NCBI GenBank assembly: GCA_903813345.2
Contig: CAIIXF020000009.1
Location: forward strand, 11,960,030-12,024,029
Direction of reading: 5' to 3'
DNA: 64,000 nucleotides
Origin: Owenia fusiformis
Taxonomy: Eukaryota > Annelida > Polychaeta > Sabellida > Oweniidae
Below are positions 14,590-58,835 of the stretch, piece by piece. A program made the position numbers and the translations under genes. A model generated the notes under the pieces. The model was not told the origin of the DNA and ran no database searches. It saw only the letters and a list, made by a program, of their open reading frames with translations. Position 1 is the stretch's first letter. Every line of letters begins with the position of its first letter.

Positions 14590-15295
14590 ATAATTGGCAC
14601 AGGGAGGCATTTCAGGGAATTCTAACAGAAACTTTAGAATATTTTGCTATGACCTCATTAATTATTATTCATCCCTGCAAGAGGGCATGGATAATATAGA
14701 ACACTGGTCAAATTTATGGCAACTAAACTTTAATGCAACTAAAAGGGCACACAACACTAGAAAATATTTATCCCCTTCATATAGGAAACAAGCTTGTCCC
14801 AAAATACAATCATCATAAACACCTTGGGCTCATATTAGATGAAACCCTAAAATTTGAGAATCACATAAATGGAATTATAATGCAAATTGACAAACTAATA
14901 AATCCTCTCAAACCCCTAAAATCAAAACTGAATGGAATTCATCTTTTGACAATCTTTAGCACAACCTTTGGCACAACAGCATCCAGTATCCAAGAGAAAC
15001 TGAAAGCTAAATCCAAGGCGACACCTCCGTAACAAGCAAGCTCAAGCAAGACACAAAACATAATGGAGATGCTGGGTCTTCGTAAACATACAACCAACAA
15101 AACCAATGCCAAACCCAACGATGCCATAATATCCAGACTCAAGACAATGGCATATCATTCTAAGTGACCTTATACTAAGCCCAAAAATATACACACACAC
15201 CCCGAACATCGCCCTCAGAAGAAACCAGAATCTGAATGATAAACTAGTAAGAGCAAAATTCTCCGATACAACAGAAAATACCCGAACTGACAGTA
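14590..15295 (+). pseudogene. Non-LTR reverse transcriptase 3' relic
   Basis: The thumb and downstream region of a jockey/CR1-like non-LTR reverse transcriptase. One frame shows LQEGMDNIEHWSNLWQLNFN (about 14675-14735), another HKHLGLILDETLKFENHING (about 14814-14873) and LINPLKPLKSKLN, with RRNQNLNDKLVRAKF (about 15222) near the C-terminal end. Several frame changes and stops; the catalytic FADD box is absent. Strand plus, 5'-truncated. Confidence 0.75.
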
Positions 15296-15452
15296 ATATA
15301 AACTGACTTCAGTTGGCCTACAGTTGTCACCAATTAATCATTTTAATGCAAACCAGACTTTCCACAACGTGTTCCTACATTCTTGTACTTTGACTTTTCC
15401 ATTAGAGTACAAATTCATTGAGCTTATAGTGAGAGGTCATTATAACCCAAAC

Positions 15453-17606
15453 TGGTATTTTGCTCATCTTTGACCGTGAATTAGGCACATAATATAATTA
15501 CAGATTTACATTTAAACTGATTATATATTTAAAAGCAACATTTATTTATGGATTAAACCAAATATCATCTCAGGATAAGGCAGGATAATGTAGCAAAATT
15601 GGATAACTTTAGAGCTACCGTATGAATTAGAAACTGTCAAAATGGCAGAGCCTAACTCACAGCATAGTTCGTGTATTAACAATATGTGCAGAGTATGTGG
15701 AAAAAGAGCCCAGAAGTTTAAGGATATTCAAAAGAAAGTGCAAGTTAAGTTGGTGAAAAACTATAAAGGTGAGTTGATAGAATATTTTGACATTAATATT
15801 GATGAAGACGATGAAGACAATGAATATATTCATCCGGTCAAACTATGTGATACATGCTACAGAGCCATAATGAATAGAAAAAGGAACAGTAATCCTATTA
15901 AAAAGCCCGTGACCATTGAAAACTTCATATTTACTGAACACTCTGACACTGAATGTAAGGTATGCAATGCATTTAATAATAAAAAAAAACATGTGGGAAT
16001 CCGAAACTACTCAAAATACATCAGTCAAAACTACAACATGAAGTTCTAAAATCACCAATTCCAGAAGACCAGTCAAACGAACAATTGTCACCAGTACGAA
16101 CAATTAGTCCGAATTTAGTTTCTATAGGAACATCACCCTTTCAATTTACTAGTACCCCTAAATCCAAGGAGGAATTGGAAGGTAATAAATCACTTAATGA
16201 AACAAAAAACAGATCCATTACATCACCATTGAATAAATCAGAGAATCAGGCTGCAGATCGCTTAATAAGGAGGAGACTGAATTTTGCAAAAAAACGAGGG
16301 GATAAAAGAAGGCTATCAGTTAAGACAGGTGGACCACCTTTGGTGTTAAAGCACATTCCACAACCTAGAAAAGTTAAAAACCTGTCAAGCTTCACTATGA
16401 AAAGAAGAATTCAACATGTTAAACAAATAAAAACGAATATATCTGGAGGACACACCGAAGTCTTTCAAGCTTCTGAAATTGATTGCATTGGCATGTCAAT
16501 CAGAAGAAAAATTTCCAAAAATCTAAAACATAGAAAATACTTATCAAGAAAAGTAATCTTACTTTTGAAAACAGCCTGTGGCCTGTCCTTGAACAAAACA
16601 AGGGTACTGAGAAGAATTTTGAAGATAGAAGGGATAGATATTGAGGCAGAAAATAAAGCAAGAGAGTTGAGATCTGATATGATTGGGAATGAACTTAAGA
16701 TGGGAGAAAAAAGATGATACATCATCCTCAAGTGTAAAAGGGTTTACTCTTGTCAATGCCCCCATAGCCTCTTTAGAACACAATGATCATGATCACAAAA
16801 GGAAGTCTATACTATTCAAGATCATATTGACATCTACATGAAGTATTTTCGAGACAATTTTCCAAATAAAGTTCTCCCGAAACATCATTTCTTAGAAGCA
16901 CATGCTTGTCAATTTATTGCTGACAAAGGATTCGGGTTAGCCTTGCATGGAGAGCAGGGTTGTGAAGGGATCCACAGAGAAATGGGACGTATTGACAATA
17001 TAATGCAATCCCAAGCAAATGCCACTGAACGATTACGCAATACAATGCGAGAACATTTCACCTGTGTAAGTCCTGAACTTAATGTCGAAATACCCCAGGC
17101 AAAGAAACGAGCAAAAAAGTTTGTTTAATTGATTATAACATTGTATGGATTATAAATGAAAACCTGCCCAAATTAAAAAAAAATTATTACAAAGTACAGC
17201 AAGATATAGGACATCAAGATATCAAACTCATTACAAACTAATATTTGGATTATTATAACGAAAATCAGATGGACTCACAATCAGTGTTATGTCATCCTGT
17301 CCAACCAGCTCACTGCTCAAAAGGTAAGACATATATTTTATATATAACTTAAAACATGGGTGTGTTAAATAAGCCATTGCATGTAATGGTATGAAAACAA
17401 AATGGGAGAAATGGGAGTTTTAACAAATTAAACCAAAACAGGTGACCAATGTAATTGTTATTTGAATGCATTTAATCTTGTTATCCAGCTGTTTTGTTTG
17501 CAAGGATATGAAGGTCAAACTCTCTTCTCAATTTGTATCTAAATTTAATTAAAATCTGTAATTATATAAACCAATTAATTGGCCCTTACAAACGAGCAAA
17601 ATACCA
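15453..17606 (+). mobile_element. RAG1-N-like element with terminal inverted repeats
   Basis: A 2.15-kb unit bounded by inverted repeats. TGGTATTTTGCTC (15453-15465) is exactly repeated in inverse at 17594-17606. After the same 26-base spacing on both sides a second 16-base block, ATATAATTACAGATTT (15492-15507), is exactly repeated in inverse at 17552-17567. Two exact blocks with identical spacing are very unlikely by chance and mark this as a DNA transposon-like unit. I could not identify a clean target-site duplication, so the outermost base of each end is uncertain. The only gene inside is the RAG1-N-like ORF set. Confidence 0.7.
15642..17128 (+). pseudogene. RAG1 N-terminal-like transposon protein, frameshifted
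   Basis: Starts at ATG 15642. The first segment (15642-16049) has three zinc-ligand clusters in the order found in the N-terminal region of vertebrate RAG1: C16-x2-C19; then IHPVKLCDTC (H64, C69, C72); then H100, C105, C108 in SDTECKVCNAF. A run of nine A (15981-15989) is followed by a frame change; the shifted frame is open from there through 16717 (basic, LNFAKKRGDKRR, LLLKTACGLSLNKTRVLRRIL). A second frame change lies in the A run near 16708. The last segment (16838-17128) contains HHFLEAHACQFIADKGFG and GEQGCEGIH, a C-terminal block I recall from related multi-copy invertebrate proteins. Aplysia N-RAG-TP is a known molluscan precedent for RAG1-N-like transposon proteins. No RNase-H-like core is visible. 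Confidence 0.7.
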
Positions 17607-20055
17607 AATATGTATATAAAATTGTTTTAGACTGATGCTATAAAAGTGGATGTTTCACCTTCACATAGTGAAAATCTTGCAAAAATGTTAAGATATTTGG
17701 AATCAGCATACTTTACTCTCAATAGAAAACATATTTTCAAATAGAAACAAGGTACTATATGGAAGAAAAGGGAAAAATTAAGTGTGCGGTCTACTTAAAA
17801 CAGATGATATTCCCGCTTAACTCAAACTACTGCTGTGTACTGGATAAACAAAGATTATCAGACTGGCTAAGGGGTTAATTAATCACCAGCATCTGGAGTT
17901 CACTGACAGTTTAGTGCAACAGAGAAAGACTACTGTGGGAAGCGAACCCTTATCAAATCAAGGCCATGTGTATGAATATGAATGAATGGAATAACCTCTC
18001 CCTCAATCTGATACAATCTTTATTTTTAAACATAGAATGGCATTCATATTCTTCCATTATTATATCATTCACTGAATTTTTGGACAAAGCATTTTCTTAT
18101 TGATAAACCTCTCCTCATTTGGAGCACCACTTACAATGCCAACAGTCACCCTGGACCAACAACGCAATGCATTTTTTCAACCATAAATGTTGTAACAATG
18201 CCAATATGTATATAAACTGTAAAATTGGCTCATAATGTCTTGTTAAGACCGAGCCACAATTAGAATTTTAAAAAAAATAAACTCATTTATTGATGCTCTG
18301 AATGATGCTCTTACTAGCGCATTAAAATATGATTTGAAAAAGGGCGTGACAAGTACATGTGTATTATTTTGCACCATGCACTTGTTTGGAGTAATTGGGG
18401 GTGTGGGTACTTCGAATCATCCTTGCTCAAGTACTTTTTAAATTGCTGTGTACTCTGTTTCATTATTTACCATCATTAAACTAACCGTAGTCATATAATT
18501 CCAGGGAAAGTACTTTCACTTTCATTTTACAACATAGTGTCGTAAAATATTCACTCAGTTCTGTGCATTATATATGACGTTGGTTTTGTTATGTAATAAC
18601 TAAAATGAGTATTAGTTCAGTGTTTTCAGTAGGTTTGTCCAAGATTGCGTCCTGGGGACATAATGATTTTCAAAAAATGTGTCTCCCTCAAAAAAACTGC
18701 GTCCCTTGAAAAAATGTTCCCGGGAATTCAAAGTTTTTCATTTTTATTTCAGGGTCCAAGGGATATATTTTGCGTGTATGTAATGTAAGGACGGCGTTAT
18801 TGAAAACACTGTAGTTACACATTACGCTGCACTGGAATTACCCAGATGCGAGTAGTTACCAGTTTCACCACCAGGTGGCTAATTCGGCGTAAATAGCATG
18901 GCAGGTATAGCAGAAAGTGCCCTTAAACTTAAATATGCATCTGTTCTAGTGGAATAATTTTCATGTAACCCTTATGTATCTGATAGTTATACAAATGAAA
19001 AAATGTCAAGTAAAGCAAAATATTATCTGTCCACTAAATGAAAAGATATTTCAGTTTTTGTGATTTTATAACACCATTACTTGGATTACCTACATGTCAT
19101 GTGTTCAAGATATCTATTTACCAAATTAATCACACAATCTAAACTGAAAAAGAGGAAGACCACTGAAAAGATCGAGAATAGTACAGTTTGGTCTCTATGT
19201 AGCCTCCTCATCGGAAAAGTCAAAGCAAGTCAAACGTCAAAGTCTCCATTAGGATAATTAAACTTACTGGGCGATGTTACTGGGTGATGTAACTGGGCGA
19301 AGTGTAGAGGATGCAGTGGATGGTGTTTTTTCAATACGAAAATATCTGGATGCTAAATTAATACCAGGACAGATACGACTATATTGCAAGTGTTCTAGTG
19401 AATGATGAAGAAAGTGATAGTGCTAGCAATGGTGATATTGAAGTTATAAAGACTCGTTACCTATTCAGGTAATAATTAATATTCTATAAATAACAACATA
19501 CAGGGTGATCCAGAAGTAATGCCACTACTAGACCAATCTTCTTGAAACTTGGAACAGATGTTCACCAAACATAATTTAGTTAATACCTCAAGATTAAAGC
19601 TTCTACTATTTGATTGGTTCTGGACTTGACAAACCTGAATGGACATCAATAATCAATCATTCAATATAATTATCTATTTATTTCATGTTACCATGGGAAT
19701 CTAATGTCAGTGATTCAATGTGGGATCATATATAATCTCACAGACAATATTTAGTCAATTTTTTTTTCTGAGAAAGTGTTCAACTAAGCATCACAGTAGC
19801 AAATACATGACTGGGATAGATGATACTTACAGCCTTAACTAGGAAAATGCCCTAGGACATAAGGCCATTCTCATAACCAAAACAGTGGACGAGCTGGGAC
19901 TGCCCCAACTTGGGCATGACCCAAATACCCCCTACTTGACTTTTACTTAAATTGTATGGTGTATTTAAAAGAAAGCTCAGTGGAATCAGTTTTCAAACTT
20001 CTAACGAAGGAAATGTGTCATTGGAGCAATCCAAGAAATCAAATATATCATACCT
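17607..20055. other. Long noncoding stretch
   Basis: No coding region supported. At 19503 'cagggtgatccagaagtaatg' looks like one terminus of a Tc1/mariner-type element, preceded by TA, but no matching inverse end is seen. The remainder is AT-rich unassigned sequence. Confidence 0.4.
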
Positions 20056-20435
20056 TATGAAATATTGATACGGAAACAGTTGCCGAAGCATTGTTGTCAA
20101 TATTTTCAAGAGTAGGGTTTCTTATGCAAATGTTGAATGATCAAGGATCACAATTCATTTCTGATATGATGAAAGAAGTATGTAGATTGATTTCTATGAA
20201 TCAAATCACTACTAGCCTGTATCATGCAATGTCAAACGGTCTCGTAGAAAAATTCAACGGAACCTTGAAATCCATAATTAAGAAAATGTGCGCAGAACGC
20301 CCGTTGGGTTGGGACCGCTATGAAAAAAGTTCACAAACATACAAATGTCACTTTGACAAAAGGACTAAACCAAGAAAATTAAAGCTGGGTGACAAGGTTT
20401 TATTATTGCTACCCACCGATAATAACAAACTGTTA
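20056..20435 (+). pseudogene. Ty3/gypsy integrase core relic, internally deleted
   Basis: Integrase catalytic-core fragment: LNDQGSQFISDMMKEVCRLI holds the second catalytic Asp, SNGLVEKFNGTLKSIIKKM the Glu block. Reading then passes directly from GWDRY to KCHFDKRTKPRKLKLGDKVL (the C-terminal GPY-type entry), so some 90 residues that normally lie between are missing. No in-frame stop until past 20435, but the deletion and absent N-terminus make it inactive. The last ~45 bp of the open frame belong to the opposite-strand relic that begins there. Confidence 0.8.
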
Positions 20436-20439
20436 ATGC

Positions 20440-20692
20440 ATTTTGCCATGCATACTCCAGTATCCCATTGCTGACAAACTGCCATGATCTATCTCTTGAA
20501 TGATAGCGTCAGTAACTGTGCCAATGGCAGTTTTATCAATTTCCTTGAGAGCCCCATCTTCTTTAAATCCCTCTTTGTCTGTCTCTCCAAAAGTGTAATT
20601 CCATGACGGAACTTTAAAAACATGCCGATCTCCTTGTACGTAAAACTGTCTTCAAAGTATGTGCCAATACATTCATCTCGATCTGACTCCAT
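20440..20692 (-). pseudogene. Integrase-type protein N-terminal relic
   Basis: Minus-strand fragment. It begins MESDRDECIGTYFEDSFTYK with EIGMFLKFRHGITLLERQTK, a helix-turn-helix pattern (YKEI..FL...HGI..S.RTLKR.L) that I associate with metazoan transposon proteins carrying an rve-type integrase core. After a frame change it continues KEIDKTAIGTVTDAI and GSLSAMGYWSMHGKMH. The integrase core itself is missing. It abuts the Ty3/gypsy integrase relic tail to tail. Family name uncertain. Confidence 0.5.
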
Positions 20693-28691: not shown

Positions 28692-30506
28692 TTACACCGG
28701 CCTTATGTGTAGAAGTTCAATGGCTACTGATCTATCATAGAAGAACACTTCTTCCTGTGGACCAGCAATTTTTTCAAACTTGAGATCTGCACTTTCTGTA
28801 ATGAAATAAAAATATACAAAAATTAACTTGAAAAATGTCACCACCTGCCATATACTACAGATGCCTTACTCTGAAGACAAACTACAGTCACTCGTGGTTC
28901 TGACATAATACGTATTCTGTTTTGGGAAATGCTTCTTAGGGTTTGTATGGTACCTTAGTCATATAAGTCATTGTTAGTATTGTTTTGGGAAAAATATTTA
29001 CCTAAACATTCTAAAAATGCATTTCTTGTATCTTCATTCCTGACAGTAGATGCAATGTAAGCTTCTGGATGATGAGTGGAATGTTTATTGAGTAGCAGCT
29101 TCTTAATGACATTCACCAAGTTTGGAACAATGCTTACATCATAAACAACATCTAAAAAGTAAAAGATCAAACCCATATTTCTCTGAGCCAAACTTACTGA
29201 TAATCTGATTTAGTAGTTTCCAAAGGAAAGGACCAACAAAACTGTACAGAACACACAGTAAGTGTACACTACACATTACATTAATGATTAATAAATTGTA
29301 ACATTTATGTTCTGAACATAAATACATAAAATCTAACCTGCAGCTATTATGATATCAGGATTCATGTGTTCAAGAACCCAGCTATCGGTGTCTCCCCAGT
29401 CCAAATCCATCACAGACACTTGTTTATTAGATTTCAGTAAATCATGTACTATTTCACAAGTGCCACACTTAGTCAATCTATGCGAAATATCTTCATTTGT
29501 TGAGAGTTTTTCATCAACCTTTGGCATGTCTTCCAAATTAGTTAAAATGTTTGATTTCAAAGATGCTATTACAGCAGAATGACAATCGCTAAATGTAAAG
29601 CTTGAGGGTTGACAAGTTTTGTAAATGGAAAGACCTGTTAACCCAAGTCCACTTCCAAGTTCAAGTACTCTCCTTTTGGAGAATACTTCAGGATTCTCCA
29701 ATGCCCATTCCGCAAGATATTGAGCAGCTGGCCATGTAGATAGTCCAGTTGTTCCTTTAGATATAGTCTGAACAGTTTCCCTAATTGTCACTAAAGTGCC
29801 ACTTTTCTAAAATTCAAACAGAATTGACTGATTTATATGAAAACAAATCATTGGATTGCTACAGATTGCATTCTGAATATCTATTTGAGTTTCAACTTTA
29901 CCATAGGACAAAACATTGTACTGATTCATTCTTAACACTCACCAGTGTGTAGGTTTTATAGCAGGAGTCTCCATTATCTACTTCATTGATTAGTGTGGCA
30001 GATGCTTCATAAATAGCATCACATACTTCAATCCCTTCTTCCTCAAGCTATATAAAAATACAATGTTATAATAGTATCGCTGAACTGTTGTGGATTGCTT
30101 TACTCATTGTCCAGAATGTTCCAAGAATACAATATTAAAGTTCACAGTCATGGATATTTGAAGTTGTATAAATGTATTGACAACACCAACTTGCATCATT
30201 ATTAAACGTTAGCCTTAATGATGTTCAGATGAAAGTAGCATGTTACTTTATGGTAAAATATTCAACCATTGAAATAAAAAATAATCATTATGGGTCATTT
30301 TTTATTTTAAAATGCATGAAAGGAGTATGAAAAACTAATATATTAGTATGTGAGCCTGAAATTACACAAACCTTTGATATAATATATTTCAGGAATGCCC
30401 ATCTGTATGTCCTTGAAGGTGGATATTTAGTGGTGTGTGCATTTCCAATGGTTGAATGTATCAGTTTTTCCTGGTTAGTTTCTGTTTGCAATATACAAAA
30501 TAGATT
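28692..30506 (-). CDS. EEF2KMT: Elongation factor 2 lysine methyltransferase, exons 2-6
   Basis: Class I SAM-dependent methyltransferase that methylates a lysine of elongation factor 2 (FAM86/EEF2KMT family). Five exons on the minus strand: 30506-30372, 30047-29943, 29806-29338, 29151-29002, 28795-28692. All have AG acceptors and GT donors and phases that close (0,0,1,1), giving 320 residues plus TAA at 28694-28692. Motif I is RVLELGSGLGLTGL in the third listed exon; the acidic motif is VMDLDWGD; the DxxY catalytic signature IIIAADVVYD spans the next junction. The family-specific QTISKGTTGLSTWPAAQYLA precedes motif I. About 30 N-terminal residues (exon 1) are not found; in human the total is 330 residues, so only this short exon is missing. 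Introns are short (325, 136, 186 and 206 bp). It appears intact over this range. Confidence 0.9.
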
Positions 30507-49263: not shown

Positions 49264-49910
49264 ACAAGCATGACATCGCCCAAAACAAAAGTAATTATAT
49301 TCGGTCATTCTTACATTCATTGGCTTGAACAATACCAACGAAAATACCAACGAAAACACCGACCAAATTTAAAGCTAAATAGAGGTGAATTTAAATTATT
49401 TTTCCAAGAAATTAGAGGCGGGCAGTTTGGTGGAAACCTCAATCTAAAAGCAAATTCCAAAAGAAAGAATTGCACTCATATTCATCTGCATCTGTCAAAT
49501 CTTTCAAACCTGATATCGTCTATTTGCAAATTGGAACGAATGATTTGGACAGAAGAGAATGTGATGTTACGCTATTAGCCAAAAAGATGGAAACGTTAGC
49601 ATCGTTTTTGTTAATGGGATACGATAGTATCACATCAGTGTGTATAGGGCACACATTTAAGCACCTAAAACCAAACGTTGGATATGGGGAATATGAAAGA
49701 AGACGATTACTCTTCAATAATAAACTATCTGAAATTGGAGCAAGTAATAGACGCATTAATATATTCCCTAATCGAGGTTTCTACAACAATGTAGATAGCC
49801 TCTATGACTTAAAAGGAGTACACCTCTCTGATACGGGAAACCTAAAATTCGCAAAAAATCTGAAGCGTTCGCTGATTTTTGCGAGGGATGAGTCGAAAGT
49901 GAGTAATTAA
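49264..49910 (+). pseudogene. SGNH-hydrolase-like protein, one frameshift
   Basis: Best-preserved SGNH-fold protein of three in this window. Starts at an ATG (49270) followed by TSPKTKVIIFGHSYIHWL; GHS replaces the usual GDS of block I, keeping the Ser. After a frame change between about 49430 and 49470, the second frame gives SFKPDIVYLQIGTNDLDRRE (block III GxND), then GYDSITSVCIG and, near the end, SLYDLKGVHLSDTGNLKFAK (block V with His). The stop is TAA at about 49908. With the single shift corrected, all the catalytic blocks would be present, which points to a young loss. Such proteins occur in retroelement ORF1s and as multi-copy genes in invertebrates. Confidence 0.65.
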
Positions 49911-52669: not shown

Positions 52670-53855
52670 TGATATCTTTATAATGAAACACCCTATGGAG
52701 CATTTTTTCAGGTAAACCTAAAGTCTATTGTTATTGTTTATTCCGTCCTTTTCTTAATTGTATTTGTCCTCTATGATTGTTCATGAAGCAGTACAGTATA
52801 AGAACATGCCTAAAAGAAACATTTATAATGCCCCGATTATATCAGTACATGAAGCATTGTCTTCTTAAAAAAGGAGAAGGATCTTTAATTGTGTTGAAGA
52901 TACATTGGGCTCATTGTGTTCTGTCAGCGAAATGAATTTGAATTTGATTTTAAGCAGCTGAGGTCAGGAAATTGCAAACTAAAAAAAGCTAAATCTAACC
53001 TAAATGTAACTTCTCATCAGTTACCAGCGACACTATCCCTTTATACATATACGGGCGCAATACACATTAAATTTGCAGGGAATAATCTTGATTATAACTA
53101 CTCTGACAAATTGCCATGGAATCAACTCCACCCCACATAATTCATATTTACATCCCTTAAAAATCTATGCCATAAAGATATTGATGTGTCTAGGCCAATC
53201 AACCTATATCGGACATCACCCCAACCCTACACACCAAGCAGACCCTGCTCTACTAACTAGACTGAGAATTTCAATCCACTAGGAAGTTAGACATGATGGC
53301 GTCCTCCAAAGCAGAAACAACTGTCCTAAGGCATACCCAGAGGCCTCATATTCAATATCAGATGTAGTGCTCATATGAAAGAGACCTCTGATATCGCCAA
53401 GGCCTTCAATGTGAAGTCATCAGCCCCAAAATTATATGTATTTGGCATGTATCTGAAGATAGAAATTCAAGAAGGGGCCATATGCCCTTTAGAGGGTCCT
53501 TTACACAATAATTTTTGTGTCATTGTATTCCTTGAAATTTACTTATAAAATTGGCAAAACATTTGTTCTTTTTCTCACCTCTCTCTTAAGTTAATCCTGT
53601 GGCAACAATCTTCTCACTGAGCACTGAATGAAGGAAGGCTTATGAAGGCAGGCACGCCAAGGAGGATTTCACTGAGGAGACAACCCCATATGGACTTTAG
53701 GATTTGGAGTAGATCCTCAAATCAGCAGAAAGGATTACCTTACATTGTAAGTACAACATAATTTCAAAGAAGTTAATATTTTACAGGTAATCTTGATCTA
53801 ACAACTTACAACCAGAACAACGGCAACGTCAAAGCGTAGCGAATCCCATCGAACA
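52670..53855. other. No feature recognised
   Basis: Several short open frames on the plus strand without recognisable domains. AT-rich. Confidence 0.35.
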
Positions 53856-53856
53856 T

Positions 53857-54710
53857 TTTTCAAAAGGGGCACCTTCTACCAAAAGTGTCATTAGACAGTG
53901 TGCCATGCTTATAATATTCACATACCAAATGTGAACAAAATCACTCTACTACTTTTCGAGTTATAGTAAAATACGTTAAAATGGTGGCCATTTTGAAAAA
54001 TGGCCGCCTTCTACCTAAAGTCTCATTAGACAGTGTGCCATGCTTATAGTATTCACATACCAAATCTGAACAAAATCGCTCCACTACTTTTCGAGTTATA
54101 GTAAAATACGTTAAAATGGCAACTATTTTGAAAAATGGCCACCTTCTACCAAAAGTGTCATTAGACAGTGTGCCATGCTTATACGTATTCACGTACCAAA
54201 TATGAACAAAATCGCTCCACTACTTTTCCAGTTATAGTAAAATAAGTTAAAATGGCAGCCATTTTTCAAAATGTCCGCCATTTTTCAAAATGGCCACCTT
54301 CTACCTCATTAGACAGTGTGCCATGCTTACAGTATTCACATACCGAATATGAACAAAATCGCTCCACTACTTTTCGAGTTATAGTAAAATACTTTAAAAT
54401 GGCGGCCATTTTGAAAAATGACCACCCTCTACCAAAAGTGTCATTAGGCAGTGTGCCATGCTTATACGTATTCACATACCAAATATGAACAAAATCGCTC
54501 CACTACTTATCGAGTTTTAGTAAAATAAGTTAAAAATGGCGGCCATTTTTCAAAATGGCCGCCTTCTACCAAAAGTGTCATTAGACAGTGTGCCATGCTT
54601 ATAGTATTCACATACCAAATATGAACAAAATCGCTCCACTACTTTTCGAGTTACAGCAAAAATCGTAAAATAACGAGTAAAGGCCGCCATTTTTCAAGAT
54701 GGCTGCCATG
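53857..54710. repeat. ~135-bp satellite, six copies
   Basis: The word TGCCATGCTTA begins at 53901, 54036, 54171, 54319, 54453 and 54591 (spacing 135, 135, 148, 134, 138). Each unit has 'aaaagtgtcattagacagtg', 'acataccaaatatgaacaaa', 'ctccactacttttcgagtta' and an AAAATGGCGGCCATTTT/AAAATGGCCGCC inverted junction. All open frames here come from the repeat. Confidence 0.9.
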
Positions 54711-56983: not shown

Positions 56984-57540
56984 TTAGATTTGTTCCACGC
57001 CGTTCAAAGAAGCATGAAGGAAATAAAAAGGATCACCATTTAGAAGAGATATCGCAAGGGATTTATTTTCAGAAATCACAGTGATGTAGGGAAAATGAGG
57101 ACAATGGCAACACCGGCAAAGGAAATACTGATGAGGAATCTTGACCTTTTCGTAAAAAAGTACAACAACATCAAAACTTCCAATAACATTTCGGTTAAGC
57201 GCTTGGTTTATGTTATCAATCAAAAATTTAAGAAAACATATCAAAAAGGGTTGTCTGTCAAACATTCCAGTTAAAGGGTCCATTTCAAGAAATGAAAGAC
57301 TCCACCGTAGATTAAGATATTTAATGAAATCAGATACTAAAATTGCATCGCATACAGCGCATGCAGTTATGTCAGTTATCATCGATAAAATAAATGGATT
57401 GAACACATATACAATGAGGTACACGTTGGGAAAAGAAGGAAACAGTCAAGAAATGGACTTCAAAGAAATAACGTTTGGCCTTCGACTAACAGACTCTTGT
57501 ATAGACAATGATGATATTCTTCAGCCTGTGTGCCTTTTAA
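56984..57540 (+). pseudogene. Transposase C-terminal region (OTU-linked family)
   Basis: After acceptor TTATTTCAG (56983) reads LDLFHAVQRSMKEIKRI, a stop, FRNHSDVGKMRTMATPAKEI and LMRNLDLFVKKYNNIKT; a frame change near 57230 leads to HIKKGCLSNIPVKGSISRNE, RLHRRLRYLM. I recall this order (DLFHAVQR, D.G..R...TP....L..N...F..KW, H..KGCLS.IP.G.GT.RNE.LH) as the C-terminal part of a multi-copy invertebrate transposase-like protein that often continues into an OTU domain, as here. The acidic catalytic residues upstream are not in the window. Confidence 0.55.
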
Positions 57541-58835
57541 AAAATTTTGAAAATCTCCAGGGAAAAGATCACAACTTGTCCAATCATTCATACGCTGAGT
57601 ATTACAGAGATTCGATAAAATCAATAAGTATTAAAACAACAATAAATGAATGGATTATAAGTCAAAGGTTGAGAACATTGTCTATAGCTAATGTAATATC
57701 AAATGATCAAATTCCATTTATTGTCAACGCCACAAGGGGGGAACAAGTGAAGGCTTCAACCAGTAGTCCGACAGTGTTACAGAGACAGTAGGAAATGGAA
57801 ACTGCTTATTTGAAAAGTTACCACACCAAATAATATTATTATTAAGTTCAACAAATAACAATAGGTTAACAGAGCATTTCAATATGTTAATCAACAACAC
57901 AGAATTTACTATAGAACAGCTAACAGAACTATTAAGAAAGATAATAATACAATACATGAAAGATAACAAAAATAAGATCATGGAAAGAATAGGTGTCAAC
58001 AAGAATTCATTTAATGAGATGATTAATGAGTTACAGCAAAATTACACTTTTGATAATAATTTGGCCGATACTATTCCCCTTACAGCACTGGCAAATATTT
58101 TCAAAGTACAATTAACAATATCAACCGATTTGGTAAACAATCCCATCATTTTTATTACTCCAGAAGACATTACACCATTTAAATTTGAAAATCTCAATGG
58201 AAAAGACGACAACTTGTCCAATCATTCATACGCTGAGTTTTACAGAGATTCAATAAGATCAATAAGTATTAAAACAATAAATGAATGGATCATAAGTCAA
58301 AGGTTGCAAACATTGTCTACGGTTAATGTAATATCATATGATCAAATTCCTTTTATTGTCAACGCAACAATGGGAGAAAGAGTGAAGGCTTCAACCAGTA
58401 GTCGGACAGTGTTTGAGAGAAGTATGGCAGGCTTCCATGTACTATCACATGGGACAATAGGAAATGGAAACTGCTTATTTGAAGCGTTAGCCCATGAAAT
58501 ATTATTATTATTAAGTTCAACAAATAACAATAGGTTAAGAGAGCAATTCAATACTCTAAACATAAACACAGACTTGAGTAAAGAAGATCTAACAGCACTA
58601 TTAAGAAAGATAGTAATACAATACATGAAAGATAACAAAAATAAGATCATGGAAAGTATAGGTGTCAACGAGAATTCATTTAATGAGATGATTAATGAGT
58701 ATTACAGCAAAATTACACTTTTGATAATGATTTGGCGGATACTATTCCCCTTACAGTGGCAAATTTTTTCAATGTACAATTAACAATATCAACCAATTTG
58801 GTAAACAATCCCATCATTTTTATTACTCCCGAAGA
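57541..58835 (+). pseudogene. Tandem OTU cysteine-protease-like domains
   Basis: Two diverged copies about 640 bp apart (57541-58180 and 58181-58835). Each begins NFENLQGKDHNLSNHSYAE-like and continues to the OTU catalytic block: GNGNCLFEALAHE in copy 2 (Cys at 58472-58474), GNGNCLFEK in copy 1 (Cys at 57803-57805). Copy 1 ends with the complete tail TIPLTALANIFKVQLTIST and NPIIFITPED. Copy 1 has lost about 33 bp just before the Cys and has a frame change; copy 2 is open to 58783 and then shifts. OTU proteases cleave ubiquitin chains; here the domain is a transposon-carried module and both copies are defective. Confidence 0.7.

Follow-up and report, generated by a model that had tools for sequence, protein, structure and literature searches.

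The DNA from about 15.3 kb to position 17937 of the window (the whole 64,000-nucleotide stretch that was analysed) is, at a probability that we put at roughly 93%, the relic of a cut-and-paste DNA transposon of the Chapaev type (CMC group), dead and non-autonomous. Comparisons with relatives in the same genome show that this copy is a decayed, internally deleted derivative with a broken reading frame, and they support the preliminary description insofar as it recognized a transposon relic with a zinc module of the RAG1 N-terminal type. The copy makes no working enzyme and could at most be moved in trans.

Zinc module of the RAG1 N-terminal type

An open reading frame at 15642–15989 (+ strand) encodes a zinc region of the RAG1-N or Chapa type (hereafter, the N-module), recognized by comparisons with Pfam, PDB sequences, shuffled controls, and L039, the nearest full-length relative in the genome. 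As had been noticed from the sequence, its three C/H clusters (C16-x2-C19, H64-x4-C69-x2-C72, and H100-x4-C105-x2-C108) stand in the order of the RAG1 N-terminal region, and the profile comparison that the preliminary description had proposed gave 26.7 bits (E 5.2e-6) against Pfam RAG1_imp_bd (PF12560), above the cut-off of 23.3. A shorter piece scored 26.5 bits, and in the genome-wide PF12560 search the window N-module reached 19.8 bits, or 25 with its neighbours counted. Ten shuffled N-module controls, including five with every C and H fixed, gave no match to this profile. Local pairwise alignment to mouse RAG1 yielded a z of 9.75, with 0/2000 shuffles as good; when C and H were held fixed, the counts were 1/2000 (local) and 0/2000 (global). 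The best PDB sequence for the N-module was a RAG1 chain (21wb, E 0.0092; E 0.091 with a trimmed query).

Residues 87–217 of vertebrate RAG1 (CND), for which binding of DNA and of two zinc ions is reported (PMC3124419), share with the N-module the order of the zinc clusters and the surrounding residues. The earlier claim of a RAG1-like context holds for this overall similarity but not for the third cluster, in which H and C are spaced x4 in the window, the mouse RAG1 spacing being x3 or x5 according to the His that is chosen, and which global alignment to mouse RAG1 did not bring into register. A second difference is that the module sits on a Transib-type core in RAG1 and on a Chapaev-type core here. 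The zf-AD profile (PF07776) overlaps the first two clusters, but the window copy stays under its cut-off (20.7 vs 28).

A full-length relative with a DDE core

Across the 498-Mb assembly (525 contigs), the C-terminal piece of the window gene (16796–17125) had 51 matches at E ≤ 0.001, i.e., its own and 50 others, and open frames of at least 650 aa hold 14 of the 51. We took 20 stretches around 20 of the 50 other matches, mostly for score and frame length; because of this choice, and because several are near-identical, they do not amount to 20 independent cases. L039 has a single 904-aa open frame that contains both a homologous N-module and a whole DDE core, with the motifs D441 (GGDHG), D511 (GDY), C530-x2-C533, LH602, H822-x4-H827, and E844/E848, all at positions that do not vary in alignment A3, which comprises 10 proteins taken from the 20 loci. 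Motifs of the C(2)C, LH, and H(4)H types are among those listed for Chapaev/CMC transposases (PMC4079192, PMC12730594). Pfam places DUF1280 on residues 273–495 of L039. In a tree of the C-terminal block (29 rows, with L009, which is the window itself, and L031, which has two stops, left out), the window copy groups with rows L010 and L011, the loci of L039 and L040, at a support of 93/87 that is not starred; the wider set of nine rows around it is starred (97/93).

The joined window protein (6002 candidates sharing words) and the C-terminal block (48 candidates) matched nothing in the protein databases at E ≤ 1, NCBIfam gave no match at E ≤ 1, and scans of viral contigs and of prokaryote genome contigs confirmed no relatives. 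Against PDB sequences, one of the C-terminal and middle pieces had a best E of 0.28, to an unrelated chain, and the other had nothing at E ≤ 1. Two structure predictions made without alignments (mean pLDDT 41.1 and 47.7) were too poor for fold searches.

Frame decay and loss of the D-D part of the core

The pieces of the window gene are collinear with L039 at 46–58% identity. The N-module is 46% identical to L039 residues 11–123 and is followed by the linker and the start of the core (15989–16714, + strand; approximately L039 residues 119–372, 48% identity, 0/200 shuffles as good), then by a short piece in another frame (16710–16781, + strand; residues 382–405, score 48 vs 30.6 ± 3.7, 0/200), and finally by the C-terminal end of the DDE core (16799–17119, + strand; residues 793–899, 58% identity). 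Three frame changes separate these pieces: one in an A-run near 15980 (15979–15992, + strand), from the frame of 15642 to that of 15983, a second near 16710, and a third, which leads back, near 16790 at or beside a deletion junction. This junction is placed at 16782–16798 (+ strand) because L039 residues ~406–792 are missing from the window; by the alignment, ~387 residues (~1.16 kb) of the core are gone. The equivalents of D441, D511, C530/C533, and LH602 fall in the deleted stretch, and the copy retains only the H(4)H (16886–16903) and the E of the CMC core motifs, the latter with candidate codons at 16952–16954 and 16964–16966.

Two earlier proposals give way here. What had been taken for a distinct C-terminal "GEQG...IH" block is, given the collinearity with L039 apart from residues ~406–792, the H(4)H-plus-E tail of the DDE core. 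The idea that the RAG1-N module travels without a DDE core was drawn from a copy that has lost most of one, and since the nearest full-length relative joins the zinc module to a complete core, the module is not travelling alone here. One supposed case of a RAG1 N-terminus moving without a recombinase core is thereby removed, and such core-less cases can arise through internal deletion of a Chapaev element. The lack of the D-D part in the window copy would also suit a distinct family similar to N-RAG-TP of Aplysia; in this family, which would have its ends at 15453 and 17606, the RAG1-N module would be mobile with no DDE core at all. N-RAG-TP resembles the window copy, by description only, in having a RAG1-N-like region in a mobile element (PMC8355894, PMC2996935), and one account presents it as wholly RAG1 N-terminal-like sequence (PMC8355894). 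Against such a family, the collinearity with L039 shows that the core was lost from the middle, with its tail still present. N-RAG-TP may, at a guess, itself be a core-deleted Chapaev, and it merits a re-check for an origin by core deletion.

Inverted blocks and termini

The exact inverted blocks that were first described are confirmed. The 13-bp pair at 15453–15465 (+ strand) and 17594–17606 (− strand) is identical at 13/13 positions, and the 16-bp pair at 15492–15507 (+ strand) and 17552–17567 (− strand) at 16/16, in register with the first and at the same 26-bp spacing, with spacers that agree at 11/26 positions. No inverted 13-mer pair accompanied by another in-register run of at least 12 turned up in 40 first-order Markov sequences as long as the window. 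Other inverted pairs of the same kind occur in the window (e.g., 62025/62641, 59253/60420, and 34133/36963 among 20 entries listed), so inverted repeats like that at 15453/17606 are not unique to the element. The exact 13-mer has 22 occurrences in the genome (10 in a reversed control), and the 16-bp block was absent beside all eight 13-mers examined of the 20 outside the window. RSS-type signals consist of the heptamer CACAGTG and a nonamer, neither of which is seen on reading the 13-bp and 16-bp blocks.

The preliminary description had placed the ends of the element at 15453 and 17606, and this is contradicted by homology to L039 that runs outward past both positions. On the right, the block region resembles the right side of L039 (score 40 vs 23.6 ± 3.9, 0/300 shuffles as good), and the right arm (17561–17937, + strand) aligns to L039 5520–5886 with a score of 112, its outer part scoring 99 vs 33.1 ± 5.6 (0/100). 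On the left, the block region matches the left side of L039 weakly (33/300 shuffles as good) and its right side better (3/300), and the left arm (15320–15482, + strand) aligns to L039 1782–1932 with a score of 58, its outer part (15320–15433) scoring 49 vs 26.1 ± 3.7 (0/100). Left-to-right cross comparisons of the window and L039 arms were not significant (73/100 and 49/100 shuffles as good). The site that matches the blocks of the window sits ~330–340 bp inside the L039 ends, at which the CAC...GTG termini (positions 1576 and 5886 of that locus) are flanked by the target duplication ATTA; copies that end elsewhere are what the description had named as evidence against its limits. A search for an exact duplication of 2–10 bp flanking the 13-bp blocks, at offsets of −3 to +3, found none (best 2/3 and 3/4), and the blocks were rejected as true ends with a target duplication.

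The right terminus of the window copy lies at 17928–17937 (− strand), where the alignment to L039 ends, and reads CACAGTAGTC inward, agreeing with the right end of L039 at 9/10 and with its left end at 10/10 positions. Weaker CAC matches (7–8 of 10) occur at 17837, 18450, and 18565, but the alignment to L039 ends only at 17937. A weak candidate for the left terminus, chosen by position only, is found at 15289–15319 (+ strand), with GACAGTAATA against CACAGTAGTC in L039; similarity of L039 1577–1619 to 15290–15329 is not significant there (86/200 shuffles as good), and the 4 bp before 15289 differ from the 4 bp after 17937. The window copy thus has a CAC-type end on the right, and a left terminus and a target duplication were not found.

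This poor definition of the left arm and left terminus leaves some room for the core-less family ending at the 13-bp blocks. Its predicted limits are, however, at odds with homology that passes both blocks and on the right reaches the CAC terminus, and with the genome-wide count of the 13-mer, in which the window holds the only closely spaced opposite-strand pair among the 22 occurrences. We regard that family as very improbable and retain the internally deleted Chapaev-type element as the explanation.

Hallmarks of Chapaev elements include target site duplications of 3–4 bp, CAC/GTG termini, and the C(2)C, LH, and H(4)H motifs (PMC4079192). In a scan of all 20 loci that required CAC termini, an exact duplication, and agreement at 8/10 or more TIR positions, such ends with a 4-bp duplication, a length that was part of the search criterion, were found in 15/20. 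The same scan with other lengths gave 9/20 (2 bp), 1/20 (3 bp), 1/20 (5 bp), 0/20 (6 bp), and 0/20 (8 bp), and the best alternative terminal trinucleotide reached 7/20. CAC ends with a 4-bp duplication were not found in L040, L041, L043, L054, and L057. Some of the 15 loci are near-identical copies at different sites, so that their TIRs are not independent whereas their target sites are. The relatives carry the termini and target duplications expected of cut-and-paste insertion, and the high identity of copies at different sites (L044 and L055, 99.1% over 4,527 bp; L045 and L046, 98.8% over 3,833 bp) points to recent transposition. In their CAC...GTG ends, 4-bp duplications, C(2)C, LH, and H(4)H motifs, and N-terminal RAG1-N-like zinc module, the relatives in this genome agree with Chapaev (CMC, with a Chapa domain); the window copy differs in being internally deleted and in having the subterminal 13-bp and 16-bp inverted blocks. 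L057 (C9:11953000-11959500) is a decayed match to the C-terminal block that lies ~4 kb upstream of the window start in the contig.

Relationship to RAG1 and Transib

The RAG1-N module, together with the L039 terminus CACAGTA, which comes near the RSS heptamer, could also be read as the mark of a ProtoRAG/RAG1L or Transib relic that is direct kin of the RAG1 core. Set against this, a search of PDB sequences with profile A3 returned neither a RAG1 nor a Transib chain at E ≤ 10, and the RAG1 core profile PF12940 was silent in the genome at E ≤ 1, although control genomes were likewise silent. The target duplications disagree as well, being reported as 5 bp for Transib and RAG (PMC8355894) and 4 bp in the relatives (15/20, vs 1/20 for 5 bp). 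Such a relic is hardly credible, and a Chapaev-type element accounts for the core. Comparisons of the C-terminal block with mouse RAG1 were weak (853/5000 shuffles as good locally, 111/5000 globally), BLASTP between them returned no alignment, and a direct link of the block to RAG1 by pairwise sequence was rejected as too weak. Least plausible of all is a domesticated host gene that uses RAG1-N-like fingers as a DNA-binding protein, which would fit the uninterrupted frame of the N-module but not the three frame changes, the internal deletion, and the transposon arms on both sides.

N-modules on Chapaev-type cores across the genome

Seven N-modules, those of the window and of six fetched loci, were combined into a profile. 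It located an N-module upstream of the core, in the same orientation, in 18/20 relatives, or in 12/14 when the seed loci are left out; L054 and L057 have none or only a weak scrap. L039 alone has module and core in one open frame; elsewhere the two occupy different frames. Pfam recognizes these modules unevenly: the N-module of L039 is under both cut-offs (zf-AD 18.3, RAG1_imp_bd 15.3), and of the 10 proteins scanned, RAG1_imp_bd is listed for four and over the cut-off in one (L043, 38.8 bits), and zf-AD is listed for eight and over the cut-off in one (L042). Nine PF12560 matches were obtained in the genome at E ≤ 1, eight of them over the cut-off with neighbours counted. A Chapaev-type core or a piece of one lies within 1.5 kb of five of the nine (L059, L060, L062, L063, and L066, the last being the window copy) and ~4 kb downstream of L067; none was found within 1.5 kb of L061 and L064, and the ninth match, L065, belongs to a different kind of protein, described below. 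Judged from this sequence context, the N-module is a part of the transposon.

In PMC4411706, the Chapa domain is described as a part of the N-terminus of RAG1. Under this name, Chapaev transposases that bear RAG1-N-like modules are already in print, so the combination of module and core found here is of a known kind. The several long-frame Chapaev copies with RAG1-N-like modules in this genome nevertheless offer material for testing the role of the module.

Possibly fresher are the occurrence of the module on another type of protein and a subfamily with unequal end spacing. A 1034-aa open frame (L065:1291-3249 and L068:2-1252; C3:4985950-4989051) combines a RAG1-N-like module with a DUF6589-like region. 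Its module scores 20.5 bits with PF12560, 27.1 with neighbours counted, and 18.4 for the partial frame (cut-off 23.3), and 51 bits with our own N-module profile; the DUF6589-like stretch is just under its cut-off (25.7 vs 27), and the Chapaev core profile gave no match to this protein. The subfamily consists of the Chapaev-type copies L044:259-4783 and L055:434-4959, which have CACAGTA ends (CACAGTACTG) and 4-bp duplications. Both share the 13-mer AACATTAATGTCA; its start lies 30 bases in from the left end but 21 from the right one, a difference of 9 bp. It seems to us unlikely that the RAG1-N module serves as a swappable cassette for end recognition, shared in this one genome by Chapaev transposases and a DUF6589-like protein, with an asymmetry in L044 and L055 of the kind used by RAG. 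If this were true, RAG1 may owe its N-terminal module and its taste for unequal spacers to Chapaev-like elements, or have acquired them in parallel.

Proposed mechanism of transposition

The N-module and its neighbours would, in an intact copy, bind the end region, perhaps at the paired subterminal blocks. The two blocks, whose starts are 39 bp apart and which are conserved around a variable spacer, look like paired binding sites, as far as sequence can suggest this. The N-module may provide zinc-dependent DNA binding and nuclear entry, this role being modelled on the zinc and DNA binding reported for RAG1 residues 87–217. The D-D-E site would then cut at CAC and join the ends to the two strands of the target at positions 4 bp apart.

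Other features of the window

Elsewhere in the window, a weak integrase-core match at 20061–20474 (rve, E 0.0099, below cut-off) is probably a retroelement fragment. A frame of the lysine methyltransferase type lies at 29333–29806 on the − strand (Pfam Methyltransf_16, E 6.3e-12), and a GDSL-type hydrolase frame at 49416–49910 (Pfam Lipase_GDSL, E 1.8e-6). A tandem array of 135-bp units (5.9 copies) occupies 53854–54661, and adjoining frames with repeated sequence are found at 57156–58783, the second of which matches OTU-like cysteine protease (Pfam OTU, E 3e-6).
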